Source: a virus
DNA length: 38,969 nucleotides
IMG/VR virus record: IMGVR_UViG_3300049203_000146
Span: 1 to 38,969 of that record
Reading direction: 5' to 3' (one strand)
This document shows positions 483-38,969 of this stretch, one piece after another. The position numbers were made by a program, and so were the translations under genes. Every line of letters begins with the position of its first letter. Within the stretch, counting starts at the first letter, position 1. Below the pieces are notes generated by a model that was not told the origin of the DNA, ran no database searches, and saw nothing but the letters and a program-made list of their open reading frames with translations.

Positions 483-543
483 CTGGAACTTAAAGTTTCA
501 CTTTTCTCGCGCCAAAGTTATGCCCGATAACCTAGCATTATGG

Positions 544-555
544 TATATTATAGAT
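544..555 (+). promoter_or_regulatory. -10 box of a leaderless promoter
   Basis: TATATT at 544-549, preceded by TGG (extended -10), is followed by ATAGAT and then the ATG at 556. The expected transcription start, about seven bases after the -10 box, is the ATG itself. No ribosome binding site lies between. The same TATATT-ATAGAT-ATG string occurs at 38140-38154. The sequence 18 bases upstream (520-525) does not match the GTGTAC element of the other promoters. Confidence 0.65.
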
Positions 556-780
556 ATGAGCAACACGACGACCACCAAGCACAGCGACACCTGCAAAATG
601 ACCTTCGGCCGCAAGGACCCGGCCTGCTCCCGCTGCCGGGAGCTGCTCGCCGGTGCCAAGCCGCGCGCCTGGGCGAACACCCGGAAGGCGCTAGATGACG
701 CCCGGCACCTGGCGGAGATTCGTGCCCACGACTGCACCAGGGCCGGCTGCGGGCCGGTCTGCACCTTTGGAGACTGGTAA
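556..780 (+). CDS. Cys-rich small protein, leaderless
   Basis: A 74-residue protein starting at ATG 556, which sits at the predicted +1 of the -10 box at 544. It has a Thr-rich start and then paired cysteines: DPACSRC near residues 21-27 and HDCTRAGCGPVC near residues 58-69, a spacing that could bind one zinc ion. The function is unknown; a small zinc-binding early protein is a guess from the cysteines only. The lack of a Shine-Dalgarno sequence and the perfect -10 spacing decide this start over longer in-frame extensions upstream. Confidence 0.7.
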   Translation: MSNTTTTKHSDTCKMTFGRKDPACSRCRELLAGAKPRAWANTRKALDDARHLAEIRAHDCTRAGCGPVCTFGDW

Positions 781-1868: not shown

Positions 1869-1901
1869 CCTGTCGCAATGGCACCTTACGACAAGATTTT
1901 C

Positions 1902-1931
1902 GTGTACTAATGGCCCGCGTGGTGTTATATT
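1902..1931 (+). promoter_or_regulatory. promoter GTGTAC-N18-TATATT
   Basis: GTGTAC at 1902-1907, an 18-base spacer, then TATATT at 1926-1931 preceded by TGT (extended -10). The same two elements with the same spacing occur at 38116-38145 and, on the minus strand, at 35228-35199; 5949-5978 has TAGAAT as -10. Upstream lie TGTCGCAA (1871-1878) and TTACGACA (1886-1893), an imperfect inverted pair. The predicted start near 1938 leaves a 45-base leader with a small hairpin (GCGGG/CCCGC) and an AAGGAG site before ATG 1983. Confidence 0.7.
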
Positions 1932-4475: not shown

Positions 4476-4510
4476 TTGCGACAACCTTTTGGCCCGCGCG
4501 AGGGTATATT
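4476..4510 (+). promoter_or_regulatory. promoter with TTGCGACA and TATATT
   Basis: TTGCGACA at 4476-4483, a TTTTGGCC tract, then TATATT at 4505-4510 preceded by GGG. The promoter at 35499-35533 has the same arrangement, with TTGCGACA starting 29 bases before TATATT in both. The predicted start near 4517 leaves about 45 bases of leader with a second motif copy (CTGCGACA, 4534-4541) and a strong AAAGGAG site before ATG 4562. Confidence 0.65.
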
Positions 4511-4561: not shown

Positions 4562-5422
4562 ATGGCCAACGAACGCGGCAAGCACCTCGACAACACCCAC
4601 CTCAGCATCGACCAGGCCGAGGCCCGGGGGTTCATCCACCGGGACTACATCGCCCACTGCCTCCGCTGGACGCACGTGGCCAAGCACCTCCAGGCCGGCC
4701 AGAAGTACAAGACCGCCCACATCCTCGACATCGGCTGTGGCAAGGAGGTCCCCCTCGCCAAGCTGATGTACTCCTCCCGCCTCATCCCGGAGACCGGGAG
4801 CTACACCGGGCTGGACTACAACAAGCTCGAGGTGCCGGCCATGTTCCACACCGGCAAGTTCCCCATCAAGCTGCACGGGGGCATGATGTTCCCGCAGGCC
4901 GCGCCGGAGGACGTGTACACCCGGAAGTTCGACGTCATCACCTGTTTCGAGGTCCTCGAGCACGTGGAGCCCGCGCAGGTTGTCATCATGCTGAAGGCCA
5001 TTTCGGGCCTGCTCGCCCCCGGCGGTCGCGCGTTCCTGTCCACCCCCTGCTATGACGCCAAGGTCGGTGCGGCGGCGAACCACGTCAACGAGATGAGCTA
5101 TGGCGCCTTCGGCGCGCTCATCGAGCACAGCGACCTGTGCATCCACGACCACTTCGGGACCTTCGCCTCCATCCGGGACTACCAAGGCCAGCTTGACGCC
5201 ATGTTGGGCGGCGCCTTCAACCGCCTGCGTGAGTACTACGACGTGAACTACCTGGCGACCATCCTGGCGCCCCTGTTCCCGGCGCAGTCCCGCAACTGCC
5301 TGTGGGTCGTGGGCTCGAACGCGGTGGCCAAGAGCCACTTCTTCGCGTCCCCGGCGTATTACACGGACGTGTCCCACTCCTCGTCGGCCATGTGGCCCGA
5401 GTTCGCACGGAGCCTGACATGA
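4562..5422 (+). CDS. class I SAM-dependent methyltransferase
   Basis: AAAGGAGAG precedes ATG 4562; the protein has 286 residues. Motif I (ILDIGCGKEVPLAKL, around residue 60) binds S-adenosylmethionine, and FDVITCFEVLEHVEP (around residue 125) is the usual motif IV region, followed by LLAPGGRAFLSTP. The N-terminal 50 residues and the long C-terminal part are not recognisable, so the substrate is unknown; it lacks the (D/N)PP(Y/F) motif of DNA adenine or N4-cytosine methyltransferases. It has its own promoter and overlaps the MazG-like gene as ATGA. A role in modifying a nucleotide, a glycan or a protein is open. Confidence 0.75.
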   Translation: MANERGKHLDNTHLSIDQAEARGFIHRDYIAHCLRWTHVAKHLQAGQKYKTAHILDIGCGKEVPLAKLMYSSRLIPETGSYTGLDYNKLEVPAMFHTGKFPIKLHGGMMFPQAAPEDVYTRKFDVITCFEVLEHVEPAQVVIMLKAISGLLAPGGRAFLSTPCYDAKVGAAANHVNEMSYGAFGALIEHSDLCIHDHFGTFASIRDYQGQLDAMLGGAFNRLREYYDVNYLATILAPLFPAQSRNCLWVVGSNAVAKSHFFASPAYYTDVSHSSSAMWPEFARSLT

Positions 5423-5925
5423 GCAGCATCCACGACGTCATGCAGTTCCAACGTAAGTTCGACATCCCGGAGAACCGGGAACCCGGGTTCCTGCCCGACA
5501 GCCGGATGGCCGAACGCCTCAACTTCCTGCTCGAGGAGCTCAAGGAGCTGGCGAACGCCTGCGGTTACTTTCTCGACGATGGCAAGGATGGGGCGCTGGA
5601 CATCAAGTTCAAAAAGTTCAGTAACCACCAAAGCGCGGAAGACCTCGAAAAGGCCATCGACGGCCTCGTCGACCTGGTCTACGTCGCCCTCGGCACGGCG
5701 GCCCAGATGGGCCTCGGGGGACTGACCCCGGTCAACGCCCGCGGCCGCTCTCCCATCATCTGGTGGGAGGCCTGGCGCCGCGTGCACGCGGCGAACATGC
5801 AGAAGGTCCGCGTGACCGACGTGTCGCAATCCAAGCGGGGCAGCCCCTACGATTGCGTCAAGCCGCCGGGTTGGGTCGCCCCGACCTTCGGGGACCTTCT
5901 AGGACCTAAAATTCCTACAAGGTGA
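5419..5925 (+). CDS. MazG-like / all-alpha NTP pyrophosphatase
   Basis: ATG 5419 overlaps the methyltransferase stop (ATGA). The 168-residue protein has the all-alpha NTP-pyrophosphatase pattern: LLEELKEL with Glu39, Glu40 and Glu43, and later AIDGLVDLVYVALGTAAQMG with Asp81 and Asp85, the metal-binding set. Members hydrolyse (d)NTPs to NMP and pyrophosphate. Its place before a dNMP kinase and a TS-family hydroxymethylase suggests it supplies or removes a particular nucleotide, possibly dCTP; this is inference from context. The C-terminal 60 residues (WEAWRRVHAANMQKVR, then a KPPGW segment) are typical of phage members. Confidence 0.75.
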   Translation: MSSIHDVMQFQRKFDIPENREPGFLPDSRMAERLNFLLEELKELANACGYFLDDGKDGALDIKFKKFSNHQSAEDLEKAIDGLVDLVYVALGTAAQMGLGGLTPVNARGRSPIIWWEAWRRVHAANMQKVRVTDVSQSKRGSPYDCVKPPGWVAPTFGDLLGPKIPTR

Positions 5926-5948
5926 CCCTGTCGCGACTGCAAAAAGGT

Positions 5949-5978
5949 GTGTACTTAGGGTTACCCTCGCATTAGAAT
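5949..5978 (+). promoter_or_regulatory. promoter GTGTAC-N18-TAGAAT
   Basis: GTGTAC at 5949-5954, 18 bases, then TAGAAT at 5973-5978. The -10 box is followed by ATAGATACG, nearly the ATAGATATG found at the leaderless promoters, but here there is no start codon. TGTCGCGA lies upstream at 5929-5936. The leader contains GAAAGGGG before ATG 6011. The promoter would drive the nucleotide-modification and replication genes. Confidence 0.65.
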
Positions 5979-6010
5979 ATAGATACGCGCAATCCAGAAA
6001 GGGGTCGGTT

Positions 6011-6244
6011 ATGTTGGTAAGGAAGTGTGACGGCTGCGGCCGTGAGCTCAAGGACGGCGAGAACATGGCGGGTCAGACCGTCAACATCCGCCGCCGGATG
6101 CGGGACGTGGAAATTGTGGTCCAGGTCCTGGTCGGCACCAAGGACATCATCAACCATGGTGAGGTTTGCCTCACCTGCGTCCAGAAGATGGTCAAAGAGC
6201 ACAAGATGGCGGCGCCAGTATTAGCACCAGAGGTGCTCGCATGA
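6011..6244 (+). CDS. small zinc-ribbon-like protein (77 aa)
   Basis: GAAAGGGG precedes ATG 6011 by about 9 bases. The protein has CDGCGRELK (CxxC near residue 6) and CLTCVQK (CxxC near residue 54), spaced as in small treble-clef or zinc-ribbon proteins, with a basic strand (VNIRRRMRDVEIVVQVLV) between. It is the first gene after the 5949 promoter and overlaps the kinase gene as ATGA. It could be a small regulator or adaptor; nothing specific is recognised. Confidence 0.65.
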   Translation: MLVRKCDGCGRELKDGENMAGQTVNIRRRMRDVEIVVQVLVGTKDIINHGEVCLTCVQKMVKEHKMAAPVLAPEVLA

Positions 6245-7269
6245 ACGGCCTCATCATCCTCGAGGGCGCCGACGGCACTGGCAAGACCACCCTGGCCGAG
6301 CACCTGAAGGCCAATTACAAGGCCCGGTACCTCCACGCCACCTACCGGTACAAGGACAAGATGTTCCTGTACCACACGGCCATCCTGAAGCACGCCATCG
6401 AGCTCTCCCGGGACCACCTGGTCGTGCTCGACCGCTGCTGGCTGTCGGACACCATCTACGGCGCCGAGTACCGGGGCGGCTCCAAGTGGCCCCTGGTCGG
6501 CCGGTTCCTGGAGCGGGTCGCCCGCAAGCACGCCGCCCTCACCGTCATGTGCCTGGCTGAGGACCTCGACGCCTACGCCAAGCGGTTCGCCCAGCTTCGC
6601 ACGGAGCGTGAGGAGATGTACGCCGACACGACCAACGTCGCCGGGCGGTACCACGACGCCTACCACGGCACCACGACCAAGACGGACCTCGGGGGCACGG
6701 ACGACTACGTCAAGCAACTCATCCGCCAGGGCGGGTTACTTGGCCGCCGTGACGTGCTGCCCTACCACCTCCACCAGGAGGGCACCGACCTGCCCGGGTT
6801 CGCCGCCCGCCTCCTCACCCGCCTCGAGTGGGAACGCGCGAACCAGGTCCCGATGGCCCTCGACACGAAGTTCCACAACTTCCTCGGGTACGCCCCCCGG
6901 GCCAAGTTCGTCATGGTCGGGGACCGGCCCTCGGACGCCAAGTACCGGGGCATCAGCTGGCCTTTCTTCGGCTACCGCAACTCCAGCCTGTACCTGACCG
7001 AGGCCCTCGGCCGCCTGAACGTCGACGAGACCCAGCTCTGCTGGGTCAACATCAACGACACCCACGGCTACCGTACCATCTGCCGCCTGGTCGACACGGA
7101 GGAGCTCATCCCCGTTGTCATGGGCGAGGAGGCGCGGGCTGCCTACATCCGCCTGGGCCTGCCGAGGCATTACCGCTTCATGCCGCACCCGCAGTACTTG
7201 CGCCGCTTCACCAAGAAGTCGGCCCACATCGACACCTGGCTCAAAACCGCCCTGTCGGAGGAGAAATAA
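6241..7269 (+). CDS. deoxynucleoside monophosphate kinase fused to a uracil-DNA-glycosylase-like domain
   Basis: A 342-residue two-domain protein. Residues 1-200 resemble thymidylate kinase: Walker A GADGTGKTT (9-17), a DR motif (64-65) in VVLDRCWLSD, and an Arg-rich lid (RFAQLRTEREEMY). Residues 221-325 resemble the uracil-DNA glycosylase superfamily: VGDRPSD (226-232), a GxxWPFFGYRNSSLYL segment, WVNIND, PVVMG, and PHPQYLRRF (315-323) in the position of the HPS loop. Whether the second domain cuts, binds or only flips a base is unclear, since catalytic residues vary. The kinase would phosphorylate a dNMP, probably the product of the next gene. It overlaps both neighbours (ATGA, TAATG). Confidence 0.72.
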   Translation: MNGLIILEGADGTGKTTLAEHLKANYKARYLHATYRYKDKMFLYHTAILKHAIELSRDHLVVLDRCWLSDTIYGAEYRGGSKWPLVGRFLERVARKHAALTVMCLAEDLDAYAKRFAQLRTEREEMYADTTNVAGRYHDAYHGTTTKTDLGGTDDYVKQLIRQGGLLGRRDVLPYHLHQEGTDLPGFAARLLTRLEWERANQVPMALDTKFHNFLGYAPRAKFVMVGDRPSDAKYRGISWPFFGYRNSSLYLTEALGRLNVDETQLCWVNINDTHGYRTICRLVDTEELIPVVMGEEARAAYIRLGLPRHYRFMPHPQYLRRFTKKSAHIDTWLKTALSEEK

Positions 7270-8090
7270 TGCGCCCCGGAATTCCCATCGCCCACTACGC
7301 CTGGCGTAACCTGCTCAATAAAATCATCGACAACGGGGACATCGTGGCGCCCCGCGGTAAGCTCACCAAGGAGCTGCTGGGCCACGTGACCAAGTTCGAC
7401 ATGGCCCGGCCCGTCGTGGTCGACGAGATGCGCAAGCTCGGCTACCGGTTCATGTGCGCCGAGGCCGCCTGGATTCTGTCCGGGGACAACCGCGTCGCGA
7501 CCATCGCCCCCTACAGCAAGGTCATCAGCCGGTTCAGCGACGACGGCGTGTTCTTCTTCGGCGCCTACGGCCCGCGCATCCGGGACCAGGTGCGGCACGT
7601 CGTCGCGGCCCTCGTGAACGACCCCGACACCCGCCAGGCGGTTATCGAGATTTGGCGTCCGAACCCGCCCATCACTAAGGACGTGCCCTGCACCCTGACC
7701 GTGCAGTTTATGCTGCGCGACGGGAAGCTCGACTGCTTCGTGAACATGCGGTCGTCGGACGTGTGGCTCGGGGTGCCCTACGACTGGTTCAACTTCAGCA
7801 TGCTGACGGGCTACGTGTGCCTGCTGCTTCGGGACAAGACCGGTGACGCCGTGCGGCCCGGGGTCATGCACTTCAACGCGGCCTCCCAGCACCTCTACGA
7901 GGAAAACCGGGAGCGGGCCGAGTACGGCCTGAATTTCATAAACCAGGTGTTCGATTCCCCGGAGTTCGACCCCATGCAGTTCGAGGACCACGAGGAGCTG
8001 GTGGCCCACCTGTGGCACCTGGCCAAGGGCGAGTTCGACGCCTGCCGGCTCAACTTCCTGGTCGACGAGCTCCGCGGGCTGGTGAAATAA
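7269..8090 (+). CDS. thymidylate-synthase-family pyrimidine (dCMP-type) hydroxymethylase
   Basis: A 273-residue member of the thymidylate synthase family. The nucleophile is Cys141 in DVPCTLTVQF, followed by GKLDCFVNMRSSDVWLG with Arg161, Ser162 and Asp164 for phosphate binding, and SQHLY (His208, Tyr210). Two features match T4 dCMP hydroxymethylase rather than thymidylate synthase: CTxTVQ instead of CHxxxQ, and Asp172 (PYDWF) where thymidylate synthases have the Asn that recognises uracil (PFNIA). Known: this Asn-to-Asp exchange gives dCMP preference. The likely product is 5-hydroxymethyl-dCMP; a dCMP methylase is an alternative. The start overlaps the kinase stop as TAATG. Confidence 0.8.
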   Translation: MRPGIPIAHYAWRNLLNKIIDNGDIVAPRGKLTKELLGHVTKFDMARPVVVDEMRKLGYRFMCAEAAWILSGDNRVATIAPYSKVISRFSDDGVFFFGAYGPRIRDQVRHVVAALVNDPDTRQAVIEIWRPNPPITKDVPCTLTVQFMLRDGKLDCFVNMRSSDVWLGVPYDWFNFSMLTGYVCLLLRDKTGDAVRPGVMHFNAASQHLYEENRERAEYGLNFINQVFDSPEFDPMQFEDHEELVAHLWHLAKGEFDACRLNFLVDELRGLVK

Positions 8091-9943
8091 TGAGCTGGAC
8101 CGCCCCCACCGAGTTCCCGGACCTGCGGTTGGCGCCCATCGTGGGCATTGACCTTGAGACCCGGGACCCCAACCTGCTGACCCTCGGACCTGGGGGCGTG
8201 AGAGGAGACGGCTATGTCATCGGCATCTCCGTGGCAACCGACGTTTTTCAAGGCTATTACCCAATTGGCCACGATGGGGGAGGCAACCTTGACCGTGCGC
8301 AGGTCCTGGCTTGGCTTCAGGACGTCCTTGGTGGTGACAACCCCAAGGTTGGGGCGAACATTCTCTATGACCTTGAGTGGCTCCGAGCCAGTGGCGTTGC
8401 TGTCCGTGGCCCGAAGTATGATGTGCAAATCGCCGAGGCCTTGCTCGATGAAAATCGACGGACCTACAAGCTGGACGCTCTCGGCCATGACTACCTAGGC
8501 CAGCGGAAGGCGGAGGACGGCCTCAACGAGTGGGCCGTCGAGCACGGCATCCCGGCCGCGAAGGTCAAGGCCAACCTGTGGCAGATGCCCGCCGAGGTCG
8601 TGGGCCCGTACGCCGAGATGGACGCGACCCTAGCGCTCAAGATTTTCGCCAAGCAGCTGCCGTTGCTGAAGGAGCAGGAGCTGTGGAAGGTGTTCGAGCT
8701 GGAGACGGCCCTCGTGGACCTGCTGCTGGACATGCGGTTCCAGGGCATCCCGGTCGACCTCGACCGCGCCGACGAGGTCCGCAAGCGGCTCGAGGCTGAG
8801 GAGGCGGCGGCCCAAAACCGGCTGGACTCCCTGGCCGGGCAGGCCGTGGACGTGTGGTCCGGGGACGACATCAAGAAGGCCTGCGACCGCCTGGGGCTCC
8901 AATACCCCATGACCGCCAAGGGCAACCCGTCGTTTGAGGCGGAGTGGCTCGAGGCCCAGGAGACGCCCTTCTTCCAGGGCGTCCTCCGCGTGCGGCGCCT
9001 GAACCGGGGCGGCGGCGTGTTCATCCAAAAGAAAATTCTCGAGATGCAGCACAGGGGCCGCGTTCACCCCTCCTTCATGCAGTCTCGTGACGACGACGGT
9101 GGCACGGTGTCCGGCCGCTTCGCGTCGAAGCTGCCGAACATGCAGCAGGTGCCTGCCCGGGACCCGGTGCTCGCGCCGCTCATCCGGAGCATCTACCGCC
9201 CGCTGCCCGGCGCCCTCTGGATGGTCGGCGACTACTCCCAGCAGGAGCCCCGCGTGACCGTGCATTACGCCTACCTCTCAGGCTTCCGTGGGTCCGACGA
9301 GGCACGCCGCCGGTACACCGAGAACCCCGACACCGACTACCACCAGATGGTCGCCGAGATGGCCCACATCCCCCGCAAGGACGCCAAGGCCATGAACCTG
9401 GGCTTGGCCTACGGCATGGGAAAGGCCAAGATGGCGCTTGACCTCGGCCGCTCCATGAAGGAGGTCACCGAGCTCTACGACCAGTACCACGCCAGCGTGC
9501 CCTTCGTGAAGCTGCTCGGGGACAAGTGCACCCGGGTTGCCCAGGACCGGGGCTACATCCGGACCCTGCTGGGCCGTCGCCGCCACTTCGAGCTCTGGGG
9601 CCCGACCAAGTACAGCTCCGGCGTACGCCCGCTGCCGCGGCTGGACGCCATCCAAGAATTTGGGTACCCGATTACCCGCTGGTTCGTGCACAAGGCCATG
9701 AACGCCCTCGTCCAGGGCAGCTCCGCCGACATGGTCAAGGCGGCCATGGTCGAGCTGCACAAGGCCGGGGACATCCCGCACATCACCATCCACGATGAGC
9801 TTGACCTGTCGGTGGCCGACGAGGCCCACGCCCGGCGCGTGCGGCAGGCCATGCTGGATTGCGTCAAGCTGGAGGTCCCCCTGAAGGTGGACGTGGAGCT
9901 GGGCCCCTCGTGGGGCGAGGCGAAGGAGGTGAACCTTGGATAA
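8090..9943 (+). CDS. polA-like: family A DNA polymerase with 3'-5' exonuclease
   Basis: 617 residues from ATG 8090 (TAATG overlap). The exonuclease domain has GIDLETRDP (Asp21, Glu23), NILYDLEWL and YAEMDATLAL. The polymerase domain has motif A VGDYSQQEPR (about 379-388), motif B RKDAKAMNLGLAYG (about 427-440) and motif C HITIHDELDL (about 564-573). The size and lack of a 5' nuclease are typical of phage replicative polymerases. The residue equivalent to E. coli Phe762 is Leu (in NLGLAYG), a variant known from many viral polymerases. The stop overlaps the next gene's TTG start. It is expected to be the phage replicase with the primase and helicases to the right. Confidence 0.95.
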   Translation: MSWTAPTEFPDLRLAPIVGIDLETRDPNLLTLGPGGVRGDGYVIGISVATDVFQGYYPIGHDGGGNLDRAQVLAWLQDVLGGDNPKVGANILYDLEWLRASGVAVRGPKYDVQIAEALLDENRRTYKLDALGHDYLGQRKAEDGLNEWAVEHGIPAAKVKANLWQMPAEVVGPYAEMDATLALKIFAKQLPLLKEQELWKVFELETALVDLLLDMRFQGIPVDLDRADEVRKRLEAEEAAAQNRLDSLAGQAVDVWSGDDIKKACDRLGLQYPMTAKGNPSFEAEWLEAQETPFFQGVLRVRRLNRGGGVFIQKKILEMQHRGRVHPSFMQSRDDDGGTVSGRFASKLPNMQQVPARDPVLAPLIRSIYRPLPGALWMVGDYSQQEPRVTVHYAYLSGFRGSDEARRRYTENPDTDYHQMVAEMAHIPRKDAKAMNLGLAYGMGKAKMALDLGRSMKEVTELYDQYHASVPFVKLLGDKCTRVAQDRGYIRTLLGRRRHFELWGPTKYSSGVRPLPRLDAIQEFGYPITRWFVHKAMNALVQGSSADMVKAAMVELHKAGDIPHITIHDELDLSVADEAHARRVRQAMLDCVKLEVPLKVDVELGPSWGEAKEVNLG

Positions 9944-10175
9944 CCAGGAGACATTGGCCTTTCACAACGAAATTCGCGCCATCTTTGACAAGTACGGCAT
10001 GGCCGACTACTTCTACGGGGCGGTAAATCTCATGGGCGACCCCCAGTACGGGGTGGCCGTGGGCGCCGAGGGCAACGACAACAACGCGCGCATCTTCCTG
10101 GTAAAGGGGATGCTAGTCGAAATCAGCCAGCACGTCCGTGGTTCGGACCCGCTGGAGTATGGGAGGTCACGGTGA
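9936..10175 (+). CDS. small hypothetical protein (79 aa), TTG start
   Basis: AAGGAGGT at 9923-9930, five bases before TTG 9936, decides this unusual start inside the polymerase gene's last codons. The protein begins MDNQETLAFHNEIRAIFDKY and continues with small, mixed residues (YFYGAVNLMGDPQYGVAVG). No domain is recognised. The stop overlaps the nuclease gene as GTGA. Confidence 0.65.
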   Translation: MDNQETLAFHNEIRAIFDKYGMADYFYGAVNLMGDPQYGVAVGAEGNDNNARIFLVKGMLVEISQHVRGSDPLEYGRSR

Positions 10176-10552
10176 AACCGGAGCAACTGTTGTGGCAGCT
10201 CGTGCGCCATAAGTTCCCAGGCGCCTTCATCGAGCGCGTCGAGAACGTGGCGGGCTCCGGCATGCCGGACGTCCACGCCCTGGACGTCTCGTGGGAATAT
10301 TGGGTCGAGCTCAAGGTCGCCCCCGAGGGCCGCGAGTGGAGCCCCCTGTCCCTGCTCCGCCCCGCCCAGCGCGCGTGGCACGCCAGCGCGGCCAAGGCCG
10401 GCGCCTACATCTTCATCCTGGTTCGCCAGGGCAACCAGGTCGTGCTGTTCAACTCCCGTGGCACGGCCGCCCACGAGCTGTGGCGAGGGACGCGTCCCTG
10501 GGACTGGGACGCGTTCGCGGCGGCCATCCGGGGGCTCAAATGGTCTACGTAG
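10172..10552 (+). CDS. VRR-NUC / Holliday-resolvase-like nuclease
   Basis: 126 residues from GTG 10172 (GTGA overlap). The core reads ENVAGSGMPDVHALD then YWVELKVAPEG: a PD (residues 32-33) followed by E-x-K (Glu46, Lys48), the PD-(D/E)XK arrangement of VRR-NUC nucleases. A C-terminal strand-helix with IFILVRQGNQVVLF supports the fold. Known members cut branched or flap DNA; here it lies directly behind the polymerase and probably processes replication or recombination intermediates. This is the second PD-(D/E)XK enzyme in the phage. Confidence 0.75.
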   Translation: MKPEQLLWQLVRHKFPGAFIERVENVAGSGMPDVHALDVSWEYWVELKVAPEGREWSPLSLLRPAQRAWHASAAKAGAYIFILVRQGNQVVLFNSRGTAAHELWRGTRPWDWDAFAAAIRGLKWST

Positions 10553-10845
10553 TCCAGGAGGTTCCGGGACGTAACTTGCTGCCCGCGGAGAAGTACGGGG
10601 AACTCACGGTGCTGCTGCCCGCGGGCCAAATTCAGCTTGACGCGGCCCTGGCCGTGGAGCTGCTGCACCGCCGGCTCATGCGCTTCGATGACCAGGACTA
10701 CCTCCTGTGCATCGGGGACCCCGTGGCCATCGGCCTGGCGACCGCCGTCGCGGCGTCACGAAACTACGGCCGCGTCAAGCTGCTGAAGTGGGACCGCCAG
10801 GAGCACCGTTACTACGTCGTCAAAGCCAACATCCAGGAGAACTAG
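10540..10845 (+). CDS. hypothetical protein (101 aa)
   Basis: ATG 10540 lies 13 bases inside the end of the nuclease gene behind a GGGGG stretch. The protein (MVYVVQEVPGRNLLPAEKYG) looks beta-rich at first, then helical (LDAALAVELLHRRLMRFDDQDYLL) and ends with a beta hairpin of basic and aromatic residues (VKLLKWDRQEHRYYVVKA). GC-rich third positions support coding in this frame. No domain is recognised. Context suggests a replication accessory, but nothing in the sequence proves it. Confidence 0.6.
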   Translation: MVYVVQEVPGRNLLPAEKYGELTVLLPAGQIQLDAALAVELLHRRLMRFDDQDYLLCIGDPVAIGLATAVAASRNYGRVKLLKWDRQEHRYYVVKANIQEN

Positions 10846-10846
10846 A

Positions 10847-11068
10847 ATGAAAACGCTCGAAGTGCAGTACACCGACATGGCCAAGAACACGCCCCGGGTG
10901 CCTGCCGGGTCCAACATCTTCCGCGAGGTGCGGACGACGGTCCGGGGGCTCAACCGCAACCCGCGCCGCACCGTCAACGTGCGCCTGGTGAACAAGCCGG
11001 GTGCCATCATCGAGAAGGACGGCCAGAAGTACCTCATCACCCGCCATGGCAAGCGCCTGGCCATCTAG
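10847..11068 (+). CDS. small basic protein (73 aa)
   Basis: CAGGAGAA before ATG 10847 is a good ribosome site. The protein is strongly basic (RTTVRGLNRNPRRTVNVRLVN and KYLITRHGKRLAI), with few acidic residues, so nucleic-acid binding is plausible. No known fold is recognised. It is followed after 9 bases by the coiled-coil protein gene. Confidence 0.6.
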   Translation: MKTLEVQYTDMAKNTPRVPAGSNIFREVRTTVRGLNRNPRRTVNVRLVNKPGAIIEKDGQKYLITRHGKRLAI

Positions 11069-11077
11069 AAAGGACCC

Positions 11078-11617
11078 ATGGAACCCATCAACTACGCGGC
11101 GGCCAGCGTGCCGCAGGACAAGGACCTCAGCAAGGTCGCCTCCCTCGTGGAGCTTCAGCTCGCCCTGGAACAGCAGGTCGAGGAAATCGAGGGCCGCCTG
11201 AAGGACAAGAAGGAGCAGCTCCGCAAGGTCCAGGAGTACGACCTGCCGGAGGCCATGGCCGAGGTCGGCCTCGCGTCCGTGACCACGAAGGATGGCGCCA
11301 AGGTTGTCGTCAAGCCGTTTTACAGCGGCAAGATTGACGCGGAGAATTGCGACGCCGCCCACGGTTGGCTGCGTGAGCACGGCCACGGCGACCTCATCAA
11401 GCATGAAATTACCGTCCCCATCGGCAAGGGCCAGGACCAGGTCGCCCAGGACCTCGTGGCCACCCTGACCCGGGAAGGCCTGTCCTACAAGGACAAGGAG
11501 GGGGTCCACCCCCAAACACTGTCCGCGTTCATCCGCGAGCAAGTCGAGAAGGGCCACGCCATCCCGCTCGAGACGTTCAAGGCGTTCATCGGCCACAAGG
11601 CCAAAATCACCCGTTGA
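11078..11617 (+). CDS. coiled-coil protein of the replication region (179 aa)
   Basis: AAAGGA precedes ATG 11078. Residues about 20-55 form a predicted coiled coil (VELQLALEQQVEEIEGRLKD and on), followed by LPEAMAEVGLASVTTKDG, VKPFYSGKID, and a C-terminal helical part (HPQTLSAFIREQVEKG) ending HKAKITR. This architecture is familiar from phages in which such a gene precedes a single-strand-binding-like protein, but its biochemical role is unknown to me. The gene just downstream encodes that kind of protein, so the two may act together in DNA replication or annealing. Confidence 0.65.
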   Translation: MEPINYAAASVPQDKDLSKVASLVELQLALEQQVEEIEGRLKDKKEQLRKVQEYDLPEAMAEVGLASVTTKDGAKVVVKPFYSGKIDAENCDAAHGWLREHGHGDLIKHEITVPIGKGQDQVAQDLVATLTREGLSYKDKEGVHPQTLSAFIREQVEKGHAIPLETFKAFIGHKAKITR

Positions 11618-11628
11618 AAGGAGAAACT

Positions 11629-12417
11629 ATGAGCAAGGAATTAGTCGAAAAGAAGGAGGCCGCCCCGCCGGCGGTCATGGCCGAGATGGCCAGCATGGCC
11701 AACGTCGGGTTCGACGGCATGTCCGTGCAGGACGCCGCCATCCCGTACCTGATGGTGCTGCAGTCGCAGTCCCCCCAGGTCAAGAAGGGCCCGGGCAAGG
11801 TCGAGGGCGCCGAGGAGGGCGACTTCTACAACAGCGTGACCCAGCGCGTCTACAAGGGTGACAAGGGCATCCGGGTCATCCCGTGCGCCTTCCGCAAGGC
11901 CTACGTCGAGTGGGTGCCCAAGACGGCCGGCGGCGGCTTCGTGGCCTCGTACGACGACGATGCCAAGCTGGCCGAGTGCCACAAGGACCCGGTCACGGGC
12001 CGCGACATGCTGCCCAACGGCAACCACCTGGTGGCCACGGCCTACCACTACGCCCTCATCGTCGAGGAAAGTGGCGCCTTCGAGCGTGTGGTCATCTCGA
12101 TGGCCAGCACTCAGCTGAAGGTCTCGCGCCGCTGGAACAGCCAGATGATGGCCCTGCAAATGGACGGGCCCGCGGGCAAGTTCACGCCGCCGCCGTTCTC
12201 GCACAGCTACCTGGCGACCACGAAGCTGGAGCAGAAGGACAGCAATACCTGGTACGGCTGGAACATCGGTGCCCCGACCATCGTGACCGAACCTGGCATC
12301 TTCGCCGCGGCGATGAAGTTCTGGGAAGATGTGCGGAAGGGCTTCGTGAAGGCGAAGGCCCCGGACGTCGACGCGGAGGCACCCGCGGCCCCGACCGGCG
12401 ACAGCAAGCACTTCTAA
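11629..12417 (+). CDS. candidate ssDNA-binding / recombination mediator protein (262 aa)
   Basis: AAAGGAGA precedes ATG 11629; an upstream in-frame TTG at 11614 is less likely. The protein has an Ala-rich N-terminus, a conserved-looking core (IPYLMVLQSQSPQVKKG, EGAEEGDFYNSVTQRVYKG, IRVIPCAFRKAYVEWVPK, STQLKVSRRWNS) and an acidic, Pro-Ala tail ending GDSKHF. An acidic tail ending in an aromatic residue is what phage ssDNA-binding proteins such as T7 gp2.5 use to contact the polymerase and helicase. I recognise the core as a widespread phage family next to replication genes, but the ssDNA-binding role is inference. The primase also ends in a similar tail (QDKEHF). Confidence 0.6.
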   Translation: MSKELVEKKEAAPPAVMAEMASMANVGFDGMSVQDAAIPYLMVLQSQSPQVKKGPGKVEGAEEGDFYNSVTQRVYKGDKGIRVIPCAFRKAYVEWVPKTAGGGFVASYDDDAKLAECHKDPVTGRDMLPNGNHLVATAYHYALIVEESGAFERVVISMASTQLKVSRRWNSQMMALQMDGPAGKFTPPPFSHSYLATTKLEQKDSNTWYGWNIGAPTIVTEPGIFAAAMKFWEDVRKGFVKAKAPDVDAEAPAAPTGDSKHF

Positions 12418-12438
12418 CCCGAAGCTCACAGAACCACG

Positions 12439-12462
12439 GGGACGGCCCAGCTGGGCCGTCCC
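12439..12462 (+). terminator. 24-base perfect palindrome, hairpin between replication genes
   Basis: GGGACGGCCC-AGCT-GGGCCGTCCC is a perfect 10-bp stem with a 4-base loop, 21 bases after the stop of the 11629 gene. Only two T residues follow, so it is at best a weak terminator; it could instead protect the 3' end of the upstream mRNA or mark an RNA processing site. It lies just before the primase gene. Confidence 0.55.
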
Positions 12463-12484
12463 TTAACCGCACGCCAGGGATGAC

Positions 12485-14002
12485 ATGGAACTCGCCGCAC
12501 GCTTCATGGCCCTCTTCGCCGGCTTAACCCGGGGCTACGGGACCTACGATGTTGAGGGGACCAAATACGATGGGCAGAAGCTCACCGGCAAGGCCACGAC
12601 CCACAACAAGCCCCTGACCCTCGAGCTGTGGCAGGGCCACCTCGACGGCACCCGCCGGGTCGGCATCATCCCCATCCGGGACGACGCGACCGTCATGTTC
12701 GGGGCCATCGACGTGGACATCTACGGCGGGCAGCTCAGCCACGCCGACGTCGCGCGCCGCCTGCGCGAGCTTGACCTGCCCCTGGTGGCCTGCAAGTCGA
12801 AGTCCGGGGGCCTGCACGCCTACCTGTTCCTCAAGGAGCCCGTGCCCGCCAAGCTGGCCATCGCCAAGCTCGGTGAGGTGTCGGCGACCCTGGGCTACGG
12901 CGGCTGCGAGGTCTTCCCCAAGCAGGCCCAGCTGACCGAGCACCGTGGGGACATCGGCAACTGGATTAACATGCCGTACTTCGGCGGCGCGGCCACGACG
13001 GCCATGGCCATCCGGGGTGACGGCTCGCCCATGTCGCCGACCGAGTTCCTCGACTACGCCGAGGGGCTCCGACAGACCGCCGAGCAGCTCACCAAGCTTA
13101 AGCTGCCGGTGGCCGAGGACTTCCGGGACGGGCCGCCCTGCCTGCAGGTCCTCGGAGCGCGCGGCTTCATCCCGGGCAGCCGGAACGAGGGCCTCTTTAA
13201 CCTGGCCGTGTTCGCCCGCAAGATGTTCCCCGACACGTGGGTCGACAAGGTGGCCGAGCTGAACCAGCGCTACATGACCCCGCCACTGCCCGACGTCGAG
13301 GTGGCCGGGGTGGTCAAGTCCGCCGGGCGCAAGGGCTACTGCTACAGCTGCTCGAAGCCACCCATCAAGCAGCACTGCAACATGAGCCTCTGCCGCACCA
13401 GGAAATACGGCATCGGCCCGATGACCGGGATGCCCCAGCTCACCAACCTCGTCAAGTATGACTCGACGCCCCCGGTCTGGTTCGTGGACATCGAGGGCGG
13501 CGGCCGCATGGAGCTGAAAACGGAGGACCTGCAGGCCCCCATGAACTTCCAGCGCCGGTGCATGGAGACCCTGAACAGCATGCCGCCGCTCCTGAAGCGG
13601 GAGCAGTGGCAGGAGCTCGTCAACGCCCTCATGTCCGGCGTGACCGTGGTACCGGCGCCGGCTGACGCGACCCCCGCCGGCCAGATGCTGGACCACCTCG
13701 AGCGCTTCTGCACCGGCAAGGCGCAGGCCAAGGCCAAGGAGGAGCTGCTGCTCCCCGAGAAGCCGTGGCATGACAGCGGCCGCCACTACTTCAAGCTCAA
13801 CGACTTCATGGCCTACCTGGAGCGCCAGCACTTCCGGGAATACAAGCCCGCGCAGGTCGCCTCCATCCTCCAGGACCGCGGCGGCGAGGCCCACACCTTC
13901 GCGCTCAAGAACAAGCAGGTCAAGTGCTGGTCATTCCCGGAGTTCTCGAAGCAGGACGGCGCCCACGAGCTGCCGCCCATCCAGGACAAGGAGCACTTCT
14001 AA
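12485..14002 (+). CDS. archaeo-eukaryotic-type primase
   Basis: A 505-residue protein from ATG 12485 with CCAGGGA as a weak ribosome site. The catalytic signature of the AEP superfamily is visible: FGAIDVDIY with Asp76 and Asp78, then KSKSGGLHAYLFL with Ser107 and His111. A Cys cluster (GYCYSCSKPP and QHCNMSLC, about residues 284-301) looks like a zinc-binding site. The N-terminal domain resembles the primase domain described in TOTE conflict systems and many phages. The C-terminal 180 residues look helical and may bind DNA. It would make primers for the family A polymerase. The protein ends QDKEHF, like the tail of the preceding gene product. Confidence 0.8.
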   Translation: MELAARFMALFAGLTRGYGTYDVEGTKYDGQKLTGKATTHNKPLTLELWQGHLDGTRRVGIIPIRDDATVMFGAIDVDIYGGQLSHADVARRLRELDLPLVACKSKSGGLHAYLFLKEPVPAKLAIAKLGEVSATLGYGGCEVFPKQAQLTEHRGDIGNWINMPYFGGAATTAMAIRGDGSPMSPTEFLDYAEGLRQTAEQLTKLKLPVAEDFRDGPPCLQVLGARGFIPGSRNEGLFNLAVFARKMFPDTWVDKVAELNQRYMTPPLPDVEVAGVVKSAGRKGYCYSCSKPPIKQHCNMSLCRTRKYGIGPMTGMPQLTNLVKYDSTPPVWFVDIEGGGRMELKTEDLQAPMNFQRRCMETLNSMPPLLKREQWQELVNALMSGVTVVPAPADATPAGQMLDHLERFCTGKAQAKAKEELLLPEKPWHDSGRHYFKLNDFMAYLERQHFREYKPAQVASILQDRGGEAHTFALKNKQVKCWSFPEFSKQDGAHELPPIQDKEHF

Positions 14003-14079
14003 TGGAGCTCATCGCCGCCTGCGCCCTGGTCTTCATCCTGTTCGCCTGGCTTAACCTGCCGGAGGATGACGGCCGGTGA
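14002..14079 (+). CDS. 25-residue predicted membrane peptide
   Basis: ATG 14002 overlaps the primase stop (TAATG); the frame ends in TGA at 14077-14079, overlapping the next gene's GTG. The peptide MELIAACALVFILFAWLN followed by LPEDDGR is one hydrophobic helix with an acidic tail. Tight coupling on both sides supports translation. The function is unknown; it could tether a partner to the membrane. Confidence 0.45.
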   Translation: MELIAACALVFILFAWLNLPEDDGR

Positions 14080-15311
14080 GCCAGACCACCATCATCCTGG
14101 GGCCGCCAGGCACCGGGAAGACTACCACCCTGCTGAACTACGTCGACCAGGCACTGGCGGCGGGCACGCCCCCGGGCCGCGTGGGCTTCGTGTCCTTCAC
14201 ACGGAAGGCGACCGAGGAGGCCCGTGACCGCGCCGCCCGCCGCTTCAAGTTCACCCGGGAGGACATGCCCTACTTCCGCACCATCCACTCGCTGGCGTTC
14301 CGGCAGGGTGGCATGTCCACCCAGGCCGTGATGAAGAAGGCGCACTACCAGGAGCTGGGCCACCTCGTGGGCCTCGCGCTGACCGGGGGCGCCAACCCGG
14401 AGGAGGGTGGCCAGCACGGCATGGCCAAGGGAGATCGGCTGCTGTTCCTGGAGGGCCTGTCCCGCGTGCGCTGTGAGCCGCTTGAGGTGACGTGGGAGAA
14501 GGACGGCGAGGACAGTGACTGGTGGGAGCTCGAGCAGCTGGCCCGCGCCCTGAAGAAGTACAAGAAGGCCCAGGGGCTGGTCGACTACACGGACATGCTG
14601 CACCGGTTCTGCGAGGAGGGGTATGCGCCCAAGCTGGACATTCTTTTCGTGGACGAGGCCCAGGACCTTTCCACCCTCCAGTGGCGGGTGGTTCACAAGC
14701 TTATGGCCCACGCCGCCCGCACCATCGTCGCCGGGGATGACGACCAGGCCATCTTCCGCTGGTCCGGCGCCGACGTTGACACCTTTGTTACGCTGCCCGG
14801 CACACCTCAGGTCCTCGGCCAAAGCTACAGAATCTCAGGTGCGGTCCATAATTTTGCGACTAATCTCATCGGGACGGTGGCGCAACGGCGCCCCAAGGCG
14901 TTTAGGCCTGCCACCCACGTGGGAAGCGTGAGCTACCGCACGGGCCTCGAGGACCTGCCCCTGGACCAGGGGGAGTGGCTTATCCTGGTCCGCAACGGGT
15001 ACATGGCGCGGCCGGTCGTGGAGTACTGCGAGCGCAACGGGTACCCCTGCGCCTGGCGGCAACCGGCTACCGAGGGCGACGCACCCGAGGCGCCGGCGCG
15101 CATCCGGGTCAGCACCATCCACGGCGCGAAGGGCGGCGAGGCGGACAACGTAGCCCTCTTCACGGACATGTCCCACCGCACCTACCTGTCCATGCAGAAG
15201 CACCCGGACGACGAGGCCCGCGTCTTCTACGTGGGGGCCACCCGCGCCCGCCACCACCTGCACGTCGTGAACCCGCAGACCGCCAAGCACTTCAACCCAG
15301 GGGGCGCCTGA
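14076..15311 (+). CDS. UvrD/Rep-like superfamily 1 helicase
   Basis: 411 residues from GTG 14076 (GTGA overlap). Helicase motifs are visible in order: I GPPGTGKTT (9-17), Ia VSFTRKATEEA, Ic region RTIHSLAF, II ILFVDEAQDLS, III IVAGDDDQAIFRWSGA, IV LGQSYR, V VSTIHGAKGGEADNV, and VI RVFYVGATRARHHLHV. This is a compact UvrD-type 3'-5' DNA helicase, shorter than UvrD because the 1B/2B subdomains are reduced. It probably unwinds the replication fork or recombination intermediates. It ends in TGA overlapping the ATG of the next helicase. Confidence 0.92.
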   Translation: MSQTTIILGPPGTGKTTTLLNYVDQALAAGTPPGRVGFVSFTRKATEEARDRAARRFKFTREDMPYFRTIHSLAFRQGGMSTQAVMKKAHYQELGHLVGLALTGGANPEEGGQHGMAKGDRLLFLEGLSRVRCEPLEVTWEKDGEDSDWWELEQLARALKKYKKAQGLVDYTDMLHRFCEEGYAPKLDILFVDEAQDLSTLQWRVVHKLMAHAARTIVAGDDDQAIFRWSGADVDTFVTLPGTPQVLGQSYRISGAVHNFATNLIGTVAQRRPKAFRPATHVGSVSYRTGLEDLPLDQGEWLILVRNGYMARPVVEYCERNGYPCAWRQPATEGDAPEAPARIRVSTIHGAKGGEADNVALFTDMSHRTYLSMQKHPDDEARVFYVGATRARHHLHVVNPQTAKHFNPGGA

Positions 15312-16744
15312 TGTACGCCATGAAAACCAAGCCGTTCCAGCACCAGCTCACCGCCTTCGAGCGCAGCAAGGACATGGCCGCCTTCGCCCTCTTCATGGAG
15401 ATGGGGACCGGCAAGACCAAGGTCGCCATCGACACGGCGGGGCACCTGTTCACCGAGCAAAAAATTGATGCCCTGCTTGTTATCGGCAACAAGGGCTCGT
15501 ACCGCAACTGGGTGGACAACGAGATACCCGCGCACCTGCCGGGTGACATCCCGCGTTACGTCACCTACTGGGACAGCGCCGCGTCGAAGCCGCTCCAGGA
15601 AACGTACGAGGACATCATGAGGCCCGGGGGTTACTTCCTGCGCGTGCTCGTCATGAACGTCGAGTCGCTGGCCTTCAAGCGGTCATTCGCGCTGGCCGAG
15701 AAGTTCTGCAAGGCGTTCGCGACCATGCTGGTGGTCGACGAGTCCACGACGGTGAAGAACCCCGGCGCGGCGCGGTCGAAGGTGGCGGCCAAGCTGGGCG
15801 CCCTGTGCCGCTACCGCCGCATCATGACCGGCGAGCCCATCACCAACAGCCCCCTGGACCTGTACGCCCAGTGCGAGGTCCTCGGCCAGGGGCTGTTGGG
15901 CTTCCGGAGCTACTACGCCTTCCGCGCCGTCTACGCGGACATGGTGCAAATTTCGGCCGGGCAGCGCGCCTTCAAGAAAATCGTGGGCTACAAGAACCTG
16001 GACAACCTGACCCGGTCCATCCAGGCCTGGAGCTACCGGGTCAAGAAGGAGGACTGCCTGGACCTGCCGCCGAAGGTGTACTTGACCCACACGGTCGAGC
16101 TGACCGACGAGCAGCGGGCCCTGTACGACCGACTGCGGGAGGACGCCCTGGCCGAGTTAAACGGCGAGTTGGTGACCGCGCCCCTGGTCATCACGAAGCT
16201 GTTGCGGCTGCACCAGGTGGTGTGCGGTCACCTGACCGACGACACCGGCACGGTCCACGATGTTAAGAACAACCGCTTGGACGCCCTCCTGGACGTGGTT
16301 GAGGAAACCGCCGGGAAGGTCATCATCTGGGCGACCTACCGGCGTGACATCACCGCGATTCATGACGCCCTCGCGAAGGCGTACGGGCTTGAGGCGGTGG
16401 TGGCCTACCACGGGGGCACTGACACCACGGACCGGCAAAATGCCGTCCAGCGGTTCCAGGACCCCCAAAGCGCCTGCCGGTTCTTCGTGGGCAACCAGGC
16501 GACCGGGGGCTTCGGCATCACCCTGACCCAGGCGACCACCGTCGTCTACTACTCGAACAACTACAACCTGGAGCTGCGCCTGCAGTCCGAGGACCGCGCG
16601 CACCGCATCGGGCAGACCAAGTCCGTGACCTACGTGGACCTGGTGTCACCGAAGACCGTGGACGAGAAGATTATCAAGGCCCTCCGGGCCAAGCGACAGA
16701 TTGCGACGAGCGTCCTGGGTGACGCCTGGCGCGAGTGGATTTAA
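15311..16744 (+). CDS. Snf2-like superfamily 2 helicase/ATPase
   Basis: 477 residues from ATG 15311 (TGATG overlap). Motif I is MEMGTGKTK (30-38), motif II VVDESTTVKN (DEST in place of DEAH), motif III MTGEPITNSPLDLY, and the C-terminal half has IIWATYRR, GGTDTTDRQNAVQRF, TGGFGITLTQATTVVYYSN and motif VI QSEDRAHRIGQTK. These are hallmarks of the Snf2 family, which translocates on duplex DNA. Phage members take part in replication or recombination, for example by remodelling forks. No nuclease or HNH domain is attached. Having both an SF1 and an SF2 helicase but no DnaB-type helicase is notable. Confidence 0.9.
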   Translation: MYAMKTKPFQHQLTAFERSKDMAAFALFMEMGTGKTKVAIDTAGHLFTEQKIDALLVIGNKGSYRNWVDNEIPAHLPGDIPRYVTYWDSAASKPLQETYEDIMRPGGYFLRVLVMNVESLAFKRSFALAEKFCKAFATMLVVDESTTVKNPGAARSKVAAKLGALCRYRRIMTGEPITNSPLDLYAQCEVLGQGLLGFRSYYAFRAVYADMVQISAGQRAFKKIVGYKNLDNLTRSIQAWSYRVKKEDCLDLPPKVYLTHTVELTDEQRALYDRLREDALAELNGELVTAPLVITKLLRLHQVVCGHLTDDTGTVHDVKNNRLDALLDVVEETAGKVIIWATYRRDITAIHDALAKAYGLEAVVAYHGGTDTTDRQNAVQRFQDPQSACRFFVGNQATGGFGITLTQATTVVYYSNNYNLELRLQSEDRAHRIGQTKSVTYVDLVSPKTVDEKIIKALRAKRQIATSVLGDAWREWI

Positions 16745-35198: not shown

Positions 35199-35228
35199 AA
35201 TATACGCACTTTGCGCGCAAAAGTACAC
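35199..35228 (-). promoter_or_regulatory. promoter of the structural arm, GTGTAC-N18-TATATT (minus strand)
   Basis: On the minus strand GTGTAC (35228-35223) is followed after exactly 18 bases by TATATT (35204-35199), identical in both elements and spacing to the plus-strand promoters at 1902 and 38116. Upstream are TGTCGTGA (35247-35240) and TGTCGCAA (35259-35252). The predicted start near 35192 leaves about 14 bases of leader before TTG 35178. No comparable promoter was seen inside the structural arm, so it may drive all minus-strand genes. Confidence 0.7.
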
Positions 35229-35313
35229 ACAAAAGCGCGTCACGACAAAACTTGCGACAAAAGGGAAACCGGGGTTCGCCCTCACGCCGCTTGTCGCGAA
35301 AGTACTTGTTCAA

Positions 35314-35482
35314 ACAACCAATGTAGGGCCCCTATGCCCTTTCCTATATAGGAAGATATTAAATTATAACTTTAAGTATAAGTAGATTTAAAATAATGAT
35401 TTAATAAGTCCCTATATAGCTTTAAAAATGAGGGGGCCCTATATGCCTTTTTGACAAATAAGGGTCAAATGTCCGCCGTGCA
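35314..35482. other. AT-rich control region, candidate origin
   Basis: Bases 35341-35430 contain only 17 G or C in 90, against a window that is strongly GC-rich. They include a perfect 14-bp palindrome TTCCTATATAGGAA (35341-35354) and a second CCTATATAG (35410-35418), and are flanked by similar elements GGGCCCCTATGCC (35326-35338) and GGGCCCTATATGCC (35434-35447). TTTGAC (35450-35455) and GTCAAA (35464-35469) form a further inverted pair. Easily melted DNA between divergent arms with repeats suits a replication origin or an UP-element-rich promoter region. No gene is visible. Confidence 0.55.
35341..35354. repeat. perfect 14-bp palindrome TTCCTATATAGGAA
   Basis: The 14 bases are identical to their reverse complement and sit at the left edge of the AT-rich stretch. 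A partial copy (CCTATATAG) occurs about 67 bases to the right. Such paired sites are typical of a dimeric DNA-binding protein. Confidence 0.6.
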
Positions 35483-35506
35483 TGTCGCAATGACCACGTT
35501 GCGACA
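35483..35506. promoter_or_regulatory. operator-like inverted repeat TGTCGCAA-N8-TTGCGACA
   Basis: TGTCGCAA (35483-35490) and TTGCGACA (35499-35506) are exact reverse complements with an 8-base spacer. The right arm overlaps the -35 area of the leaderless promoter at 35528. Single copies or near copies of the 8-mer recur at 1871, 1886, 2875, 4476, 4534, 5929, 35252, 35292 and 38047, mostly next to promoters. This suggests a binding site for one regulator acting at several promoters. Confidence 0.6.
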
Positions 35507-35527
35507 CCTTTTGGCCACACCTTGTGG

Positions 35528-35533
35528 TATATT
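35528..35533 (+). promoter_or_regulatory. -10 box of a leaderless promoter
   Basis: TATATT at 35528-35533, preceded by TGG, is followed by six bases (ATCTAC) and then ATG 35540. The expected transcription start is the ATG. TTGCGACA begins 29 bases before TATATT, as at the 4505 promoter. Confidence 0.65.
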
Positions 35534-35539: not shown

Positions 35540-35971
35540 ATGCGAACGCCCATCCGTAAAACCTACCTGTCCCTCGACACCGTCGCGCACATCAAGCGCC
35601 TCTTCCCCCGGCTCCAGGACTTCTGGCGCCAGCACGTCGACCGCCAGGACATGTCCATGCCCACCTTCTACAGCATCATGCGCGGCGAGCCGGGTAGCGA
35701 CGAGCACCTCGAGGTCATCGAGCGCGCCTTCTCCGACTGCCTGGCCAGCGACGTGACCCTGGCCCCCGACTCGCGCGCCGTGGCCGACCTGCGCCGCTGC
35801 GTGACGCCCTGGTGGCTGCGCGCCTCCCAGGACGACTGGGATAAGGAGGCGGGCCACGCCACCCGCGTCGCCACGTCCGCCCAGTTCGACACCATCCGCG
35901 CCGAGCTCATCCGCCTCGGCATCCTCGACGCGCACGGCTACCCCATCAAACGCCAGGAGGTCCCCCGGTGA
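35540..35971 (+). CDS. leaderless candidate transcription regulator (143 aa)
   Basis: Start ATG 35540 lies at the predicted +1 with no ribosome site. The segment DMSMPTFYSIMRGEPGSDEH followed by LEVIERAFSD resembles a helix-turn-helix of the Cro/repressor type (helix, turn at RGEPGS, helix), about residues 37-66. The rest is helical with Trp-rich (CVTPWWLRASQDDWDKEAG) and a C-terminal helix (AQFDTIRAELIRLGILDAHG) that could dimerise. Position beside the divergent promoters and the TGTCGCAA palindrome makes it the best candidate for their regulator; this is inference. It overlaps the next gene as GTGA. Confidence 0.65.
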   Translation: MRTPIRKTYLSLDTVAHIKRLFPRLQDFWRQHVDRQDMSMPTFYSIMRGEPGSDEHLEVIERAFSDCLASDVTLAPDSRAVADLRRCVTPWWLRASQDDWDKEAGHATRVATSAQFDTIRAELIRLGILDAHGYPIKRQEVPR

Positions 35972-38022: not shown

Positions 38023-38065
38023 GCTATTAACTAAAAATTCCCAACTTGTCGCGTTGTTTTGCCGT

Positions 38066-38116
38066 AAGTGGAACTATTAGTTCCACTTATTGCGCCACTT
38101 CTTTTCCAAAAAGTGG
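38066..38116. promoter_or_regulatory. alternative hairpins / operator overlapping a -35 element
   Basis: AAGTGGAACT-ATT-AGTTCCACTT (38066-38088) is a perfect 10-bp inverted repeat. The CCACTT/AAGTGG pair is repeated at 38095-38100 and 38111-38116, the last overlapping the GTGTAC element. In RNA from upstream genes these would form competing hairpins, the first a possible terminator; as DNA they could be operator sites. TGTCGCGT lies just before (38047-38054). Confidence 0.5.
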
Positions 38117-38145
38117 TGTACGCGGGACCGGAATCGGGGTATATT
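38116..38145 (+). promoter_or_regulatory. promoter GTGTAC-N18-TATATT, leaderless
   Basis: GTGTAC at 38116-38121, 18 bases, TATATT at 38140-38145, then ATAGAT and ATG 38152. It combines the two-element promoter seen at 1902 with the leaderless arrangement seen at 544. The predicted transcription start is the ATG. Confidence 0.7.
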
Positions 38146-38151
38146 ATAGAT

Positions 38152-38310
38152 ATGAATAACGAACGCGTCAACCTGAACAACTACAAAGACCAGACCATCG
38201 CGACCCTTAGCGCCCTGGTCCCGAATATCTACAAGTCCCACCCGCTCTGCATCCAGAAGGACCTGCTTATCCGCGCGGCCATCCGTGCCGGCAAGCTGGA
38301 GGTACGTTAA
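38152..38310 (+). CDS. leaderless small protein (52 aa)
   Basis: ATG 38152 sits at the predicted +1 of the 38116 promoter; no ribosome site precedes it. The protein MNNERVNLNNYKDQTIATLS, then ALVPNIYKSHPLCIQKDLLI and RAAIRAGKLEVR, is helical with a basic end and could bind nucleic acid, but no domain is recognised. It uses more AT-rich codons at the start than its neighbours. The next gene follows after one base. Confidence 0.65.
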   Translation: MNNERVNLNNYKDQTIATLSALVPNIYKSHPLCIQKDLLIRAAIRAGKLEVR

Positions 38311-38568: not shown

Positions 38569-38969
38569 ATGAACACGACCACCAAGACCTTCAAGGAATA
38601 CTGCGCCGAGCTCGACGCCTGCGGCGATGCCATGGCCTTCATCGGCGACCAGGACCTCGCGACCGCCTGGGCCCGCTGCACGCGCCCGGACTGGATGCTC
38701 TGGCTGCTCCGCCGTGCGGGCGCCATCGACCGGGTGACCAGCGTCAAGCTGGCGGTCAGCTTCGTCGCGCGTGTGGCCAAGCACAACCCGGGGGCTGTCC
38801 AGCCGGTCCTCGACGCCCTGCAGGCGTGGCTGGTTGACCCTTCCGACGTTAATTTGGCGCTGGTCCGCGAGGCGGGTCGAAAGGCCCGGACCGCCGACGC
38901 CGACGCCGCCGCCGCCGCCGCCGCCGACGCCGCCGCCTACGCCGCCGCCGCCGCCGCCTACGCCGCCGC
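38569..38969 (+). CDS. alanine-repeat protein (5' part, runs off the window)
   Basis: AAAGGAGAA precedes ATG 38569; the frame is open to the window edge (133 codons). The N-terminal domain (FKEYCAELDACGDAMAFIGD, RCTRPDWMLWLLRRAG) resembles a widespread phage and bacterial family of unknown function whose C-termini consist of Ala/Tyr/Asp repeats. Here residues from about 108 read DADAAAAAAADAAAYAAAAA and on. The residual frame at the edge and the 28 Ala/Arg/Gln-rich residues at 1-87 suggest that the gene continues at the left end of the window. Confidence 0.75.
   Translation, partial: MNTTTKTFKEYCAELDACGDAMAFIGDQDLATAWARCTRPDWMLWLLRRAGAIDRVTSVKLAVSFVARVAKHNPGAVQPVLDALQAWLVDPSDVNLALVREAGRKARTADADAAAAAAADAAAYAAAAAAYAA
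38891..38969 (+). repeat. GCC/GAC/TAC triplet repeat tract
   Basis: A run of GCC codons interrupted by GAC and TAC extends to the window edge inside the alanine-repeat gene. Such low-complexity sequence commonly breaks assemblies and is prone to slippage. The window begins with GCCGCG, consistent with the other side of the same tract. Confidence 0.8.

Follow-up and report, generated by a model that had tools for sequence, protein, structure and literature searches.

Three phage genes with a -10 box six bases before the ATG are probably transcribed as leaderless mRNAs

Three genes of a phage carry TATATT exactly six bases before their ATG (TATATTNNNNNNATG) and lack a Shine–Dalgarno (SD) sequence, and we consider it probable (about 0.85) that these sites are -10 promoter elements giving leaderless mRNAs. 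The DNA analysed, here called the window, is virus record IMGVR_UViG_3300049203_000146 (38,969 bases, 65% G+C). If the sites are promoters read by a host RNA polymerase of the sigma-70 type, a -10 box at -12 to -7 would put +1 on the A of the start codon, the resulting mRNAs would have no 5' leader, and ribosomes would recognize the 5'-terminal AUG. The best reading is that the mRNAs begin with the A of the ATG or within one or two bases of it, and a shift of that size would give a very short leader. These promoters would belong to a small set; the others carry an identical or similar -10 box and would fire 26–45 nt upstream of SD-led genes. Leaderless arrangements are less common in bacteria and well known there, and the three genes are a further example; the promoter set (GTGTACN-N17-TATATT together with TTGCGACA sites in helical phase) is more unusual than the genes themselves. 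Features are listed in table 1.

Table 1. Predicted leaderless genes, promoters and upstream elements in the window.
Feature	Position	Strand	Remarks
Predicted leaderless gene	556..780	+	74 aa, Cys-rich (CKMTFGRKDPACSRC...CGPVCTFGDW); mRNA predicted to begin with the A of its ATG
Predicted leaderless gene	35540..35971	+	143 aa; opens the rightward arm; no match to any family
Predicted leaderless gene	38152..38310	+	52 aa; no further ATG in frame downstream of the start
Extended -10 box TGG-TATATT of the 556 gene	541..549	+	
Extended -10 box TGG-TATATT of the 35540 gene	35525..35533	+	
Promoter GTGTACG-N17-TATATT of the 38152 gene	38116..38145	+	
Leadered promoter GTGTACT-N17-TATATT	1902..1931	+	predicted start 1938, leader 45 nt; SD AAGGAG; gene 1983
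Leadered promoter TTGCGACAACCTTTTGGCC...TATATT	4476..4510	+	predicted leader 45 nt; SD AAGGAG; gene 4562
Promoter GTGTACT-N17-TAGAAT, then ATAGATA	5949..5978	+	predicted leader about 26 nt; SD AAGG; gene 6011
Leftward promoter GTGTACT-N17-TATATT	35199..35228	-	precedes packaging/structural arm
Inverted repeat TGTCGCAA-N7-TTACGACA	1871..1893		upstream of leadered promoter 1926
Inverted repeat TGTCGCAATGACCACGTTGCGACA	35483..35506		-57 to -34 from predicted 35540 mRNA start
Perfect palindrome TAAGTGGAACTA-T-TAGTTCCACTTA (TAAGTGGAACTATTAGTTCCACTTA)	38065..38089		12-base arms; upstream of the 38152 gene
TGGAACTTAAAGTTTCACTT block	484..503	+	weakly supported resemblance to the palindrome upstream of 38140

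The window contains exactly three copies of TATATT-N6-ATG, with boxes at +544, +35528 and +38140 as originally described, and 100 dinucleotide shuffles of its full length produced no TATATTNNNNNNATG. Under a stricter null, in which only the AT-richer gaps before genes were shuffled (n = 20,000), 146 shuffles put one TATATT at -12 and none put two or more there. The sites at 544 and 38140 had been described as identical over 15 bases; the identity is real and extends over 18 (GGTATATTATAGATATGA, 542–559 and 38138–38155). The site at 35528 diverges from both downstream of TATATTAT, and its upstream elements also differ. TATATT itself has seven copies on the two strands, all of them intergenic, while non-coding gaps make up 4.3% of the window; five copies are on the + strand, and those at 1926 and 4505 head genes with an SD and a predicted leader. 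The broader TANNNT-N6-ATG is only mildly enriched (8 observed versus 2.7 expected). Scanning IMG/VR for exact GTATATTATAGATATG returned more than 100 matches, nearly all in AT-rich phages, in which such a string arises easily; the sole GC-rich match beyond the window was a near-identical contig of the same phage. Near-identical contigs of this phage show no variation at the three sites.

The absence of an SD from these genes, against its frequent presence elsewhere, was likewise borne out: an SD-complementary run of at least four bases precedes none of the three and 44 of the 56 other called genes, and most of the 12 others without such a run abut or overlap the preceding gene. Thirteen genes follow a non-coding gap; eight have an SD, the three genes with the box have none, and in the remaining two, 12485 and the terminase small subunit, it is weak or absent. 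The three ATGs are the best-supported gene starts. Scores of the 12 in-frame codons before them (-2.4, 0.0 and -0.6) look non-coding, and those of the first 20 codons from the ATG (13.0, 10.4 and 16.7) look coding. For 556, the N-termini of divergent homologues (25 in IMG/VR and five in actinobacterial genomes) add to the coding signal and confirm the predicted start codon, since homologues with clear starts begin 2–5 residues ahead of a conserved KH and the window gene is similar. For 35540 and 38152 the start is supported by the coding signal, and no homologues of either were found beyond near-identical contigs; the 38152 protein has no methionine besides the start.

Leaderless translation is enhanced by CA repeats after the start and reduced by structure around it (PMC9031893). 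Predicted structure in positions +1 to +40 of the mRNA is equally weak in just 2, 7 and 0 of 56 genes for 556, 35540 and 38152, respectively, and in A+C content of the 30 bases after the ATG the three rank 1, 4 and 6 of 58, both measures having been picked after the sequences were seen and being supportive rather than decisive. The weak structure and A+C richness of these 5' ends fit leaderless translation.

None of the five + strand TATATT boxes has a canonical TTGACA -35. A TGTACN hexamer lies 17 bp before the -10 at four promoters (TGTACG at 38140; TGTACT at 1926, 5973 and, on the - strand, 35204), and this combination was observed four times versus 0.007 expected; at other spacings between 10 and 25 there is only one case, at 19. 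All four intergenic copies of GTGTAC sit in GTGTACN-N17 promoters, and none of the 15 intragenic copies has a -10 box at that distance. GTGTACN is a putative -35-like element, non-canonical and unlike TTGACA. Seven related phage records contained no clear case of GTGTACN-N17, and the literature yielded nothing relevant on GTGTAC as a phage promoter element.

A second element, TTGCGACA(A)CCTTTTGGCC, is common to 35528 and 4505 at the same distance, -41 from the predicted start, which suggests a single promoter module that at 35528 is set against the ATG. The inverted repeat TGTCGCAA...TTGCGACA is common to 35528 and 1926; at 1926 it lies 10–11 bp further upstream, a shift of about one helical turn. 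The window contains seven copies of TTGCGACA or its complement versus 1.2 expected, six of them intergenic. Sites of the TTGCGACA/TGTCGCAA type at 1871–1893, 4476–4483, 35252–35259 and 35483–35506 stand at helically phased distances from promoters; they are likely candidates for binding sites of a regulator. The palindrome upstream of 38152 could be an operator or a terminator. Local alignment of the regions upstream of 544 and 38140 scores 23, a value reached by 6 of 300 shuffles. The leaderless promoters thus have three upstream architectures: GTGTACN at 38140; TTGCGACA with an extended -10 at 35528; and, at 544, just an extended -10 with a weakly supported block (TGGAACT...AGTTTCACTT) resembling the palindrome of 38140. 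Through these shared elements the leaderless boxes are linked to promoters that would fire upstream of SD-led genes, and whether an mRNA is leaderless or leadered would then depend on where the ATG lies relative to a similar -10 box.

Transcription might also start further upstream, giving leadered mRNAs without an SD in which the AT-rich boxes would serve as unpaired sequence aiding ribosome binding. We consider this unlikely. The gaps before the genes are long (73, 129 and more than 300 bases) and AT-rich, the 544 box has a weaker TAACCT 16 bases ahead of it, and the -35 regions of the 544 and 35528 boxes are poor, so that a more distant start is formally possible. It would, however, leave unexplained the exact spacing and the association of the boxes with TGTACN-N17 and TTGCGACA, as well as the lack of an SD that is present in eight of the ten other gapped genes.

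Just as doubtful is the proposal that the mRNAs are leaderless and that leaderlessness is, moreover, the phage's signal for immediate-early genes, as a temporal or stress-proof class. All three genes do lie in the rightward arm with the replication genes, 35540 being the first gene of the arm. The same arm, however, has promoters at 1926, 4505 and 5973 whose -10 box is identical or similar and which head SD-led genes (predicted leaders of 45, 45 and 26 nt); the leaderless promoters differ among themselves in upstream architecture, and homologues of 556 are mostly SD-led. No promoter type was found that is common to the leaderless genes and distinct from the leadered genes of this arm. Leaderlessness thus appears independent of promoter class, which argues against a single regulatory group such as immediate-early genes. 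The original prediction of leaderless mRNAs is well supported by the spacing, upstream elements, coding signal and 5' ends, and the proposal of immediate-early marking is not supported.

Slightly less probable again is that a phage factor reprogrammes or assists the host RNA polymerase to read GTGTACN-N17-TATATT promoters and promoters that depend on TTGCGACA, some of them placed directly against an ATG, and so gives leaderless mRNAs translatable when normal initiation is impaired in infection. Coincidence in AT-rich spacers, or a functionless recent duplication of one AT-rich segment, is the least credible: 544 and 38140 share the 18 bases and the weak upstream block and may be non-independent, but two boxes never arise when spacers alone are shuffled, 35528 differs on both sides of the box, and even a duplication would have carried a functional promoter with it.

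The cI gene of phage lambda encodes its repressor. As predicted for the window genes, the cI mRNA begins at the AUG (PMC9031893), and lambda provided the first case of a leaderless mRNA (PMC3160421); unlike cI, the three window genes carry no functional assignment, and no repressor was recognized. Phage transcripts are often leaderless according to one transcriptome paper (PMC5312081). In bacteria, leaderless genes have an accepted mark, a TANNNT lying about 12 bp ahead of the start (PMC3160421), and all three window genes have a -10-like box at this distance. Such TA-led genes are common in Actinobacteria and Deinococcus-Thermus and, within the gamma-proteobacteria, occur mostly in Xanthomonadales and Legionellales (PMC3160421); compared with these bacterial genes (Zheng et al. 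2011, PMC3160421), the present case is in a phage, involves just three genes and has an unusually uniform TATATT. In Deinococcus the motif has been shown to act as a -10 region adjoining the ORF, and across Deinococcus-Thermus the TANNNT adjoins the ORF as it does here, mostly without a classical -35, while a -35 set 17 bp upstream raises expression (PMC12340547). About a third of the genes of Deinococcus radiodurans are of this kind (PMC12340547), as against 3 of about 59 here, where the host probably belongs to another phylum.

Among the homologues of 556, most are SD-led, and together they indicate that leaderlessness is not conserved. One IMG/VR homologue (L135) has TTGACA-N17-TGTAAT-N6-ATG and no SD, and looks leaderless with a different promoter. 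Similar arrangements precede gene 7042 of phage MW202510 (TTTACA-N17-TAAAAT-N6-ATG, no SD) and gene 13000 of MW202483 (TTTACT-N17-TATACT-N6-ATG). The L135 and MW202510 cases have a consensus-like -35, whereas the window genes have TGTACN, an extended -10 or TTGCGACA. Leaderless starts would on this evidence be sporadic in such phages, with differing promoters. The window offers, in one phage, the same -10 box for predicted leaderless and SD-led genes, so that both translation modes could be compared directly in infection. It also carries a warning for annotation, as gene callers that require an SD would shift or miss these starts, and GTGTACN, with its strict spacing of 17 bp, offers a testable lead on how the phage uses the host polymerase.

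Rightward genes occupy the first 18 kb and everything from 35.5 kb to the right end; packaging and structural genes read leftward over 18–35 kb. Predicted P22-like portal, coat and head-closure proteins, with a DNA polymerase, primase and helicases, identify the phage as tailed; no phage RNA polymerase gene was recognized among the proteins scanned. The nearest relatives of portal, coat and primase are phages of Pseudomonadota, at 31–45% identity, including Rhodoferax phage P26218, Xanthomonas phage PBR31, Pseudomonas phage PAE2 and Acinetobacter phages. These core genes point tentatively to a host in Pseudomonadota rather than a Deinococcus or actinomycete. The earlier pointer to Deinococcus and actinobacteria is weak in this light, although five 556 homologues do occur in actinobacterial genomes. 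A prophage search with the portal protein gave no match. The 556 family with its CGPVCTFG[DE]W C-terminus is widespread, spanning the 25 IMG/VR loci and genomes of Streptomyces, Frankia and Nonomuraea. Structure prediction of the 35540 protein from its single sequence was mostly helical with a mean pLDDT of 46, which is not interpretable, and we do not claim the protein as a helix-turn-helix regulator.

The replication arm (4562–16744) has the same gene order as phage MW202510: methyltransferase, NTP-pyrophosphohydrolase, thymidylate kinase, pyrimidine hydroxymethylase-like gene, polymerase, primase and helicases. Base modification is possible. The right end of the window (38880–38969) is an Ala-rich GCC repeat and the left end (1–90) an Ala-containing frame, which suggests, without proving it, that the contig is broken inside one repetitive gene. 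A near-identical contig (L027) is missing 14 bases at 37253–37266, just within the start of a YfbR-like gene. The divergent gap contains an AT-rich imperfect inverted repeat (35344–35419) with 37-base arms and CTATATAG at both ends, which is possibly a replication origin.
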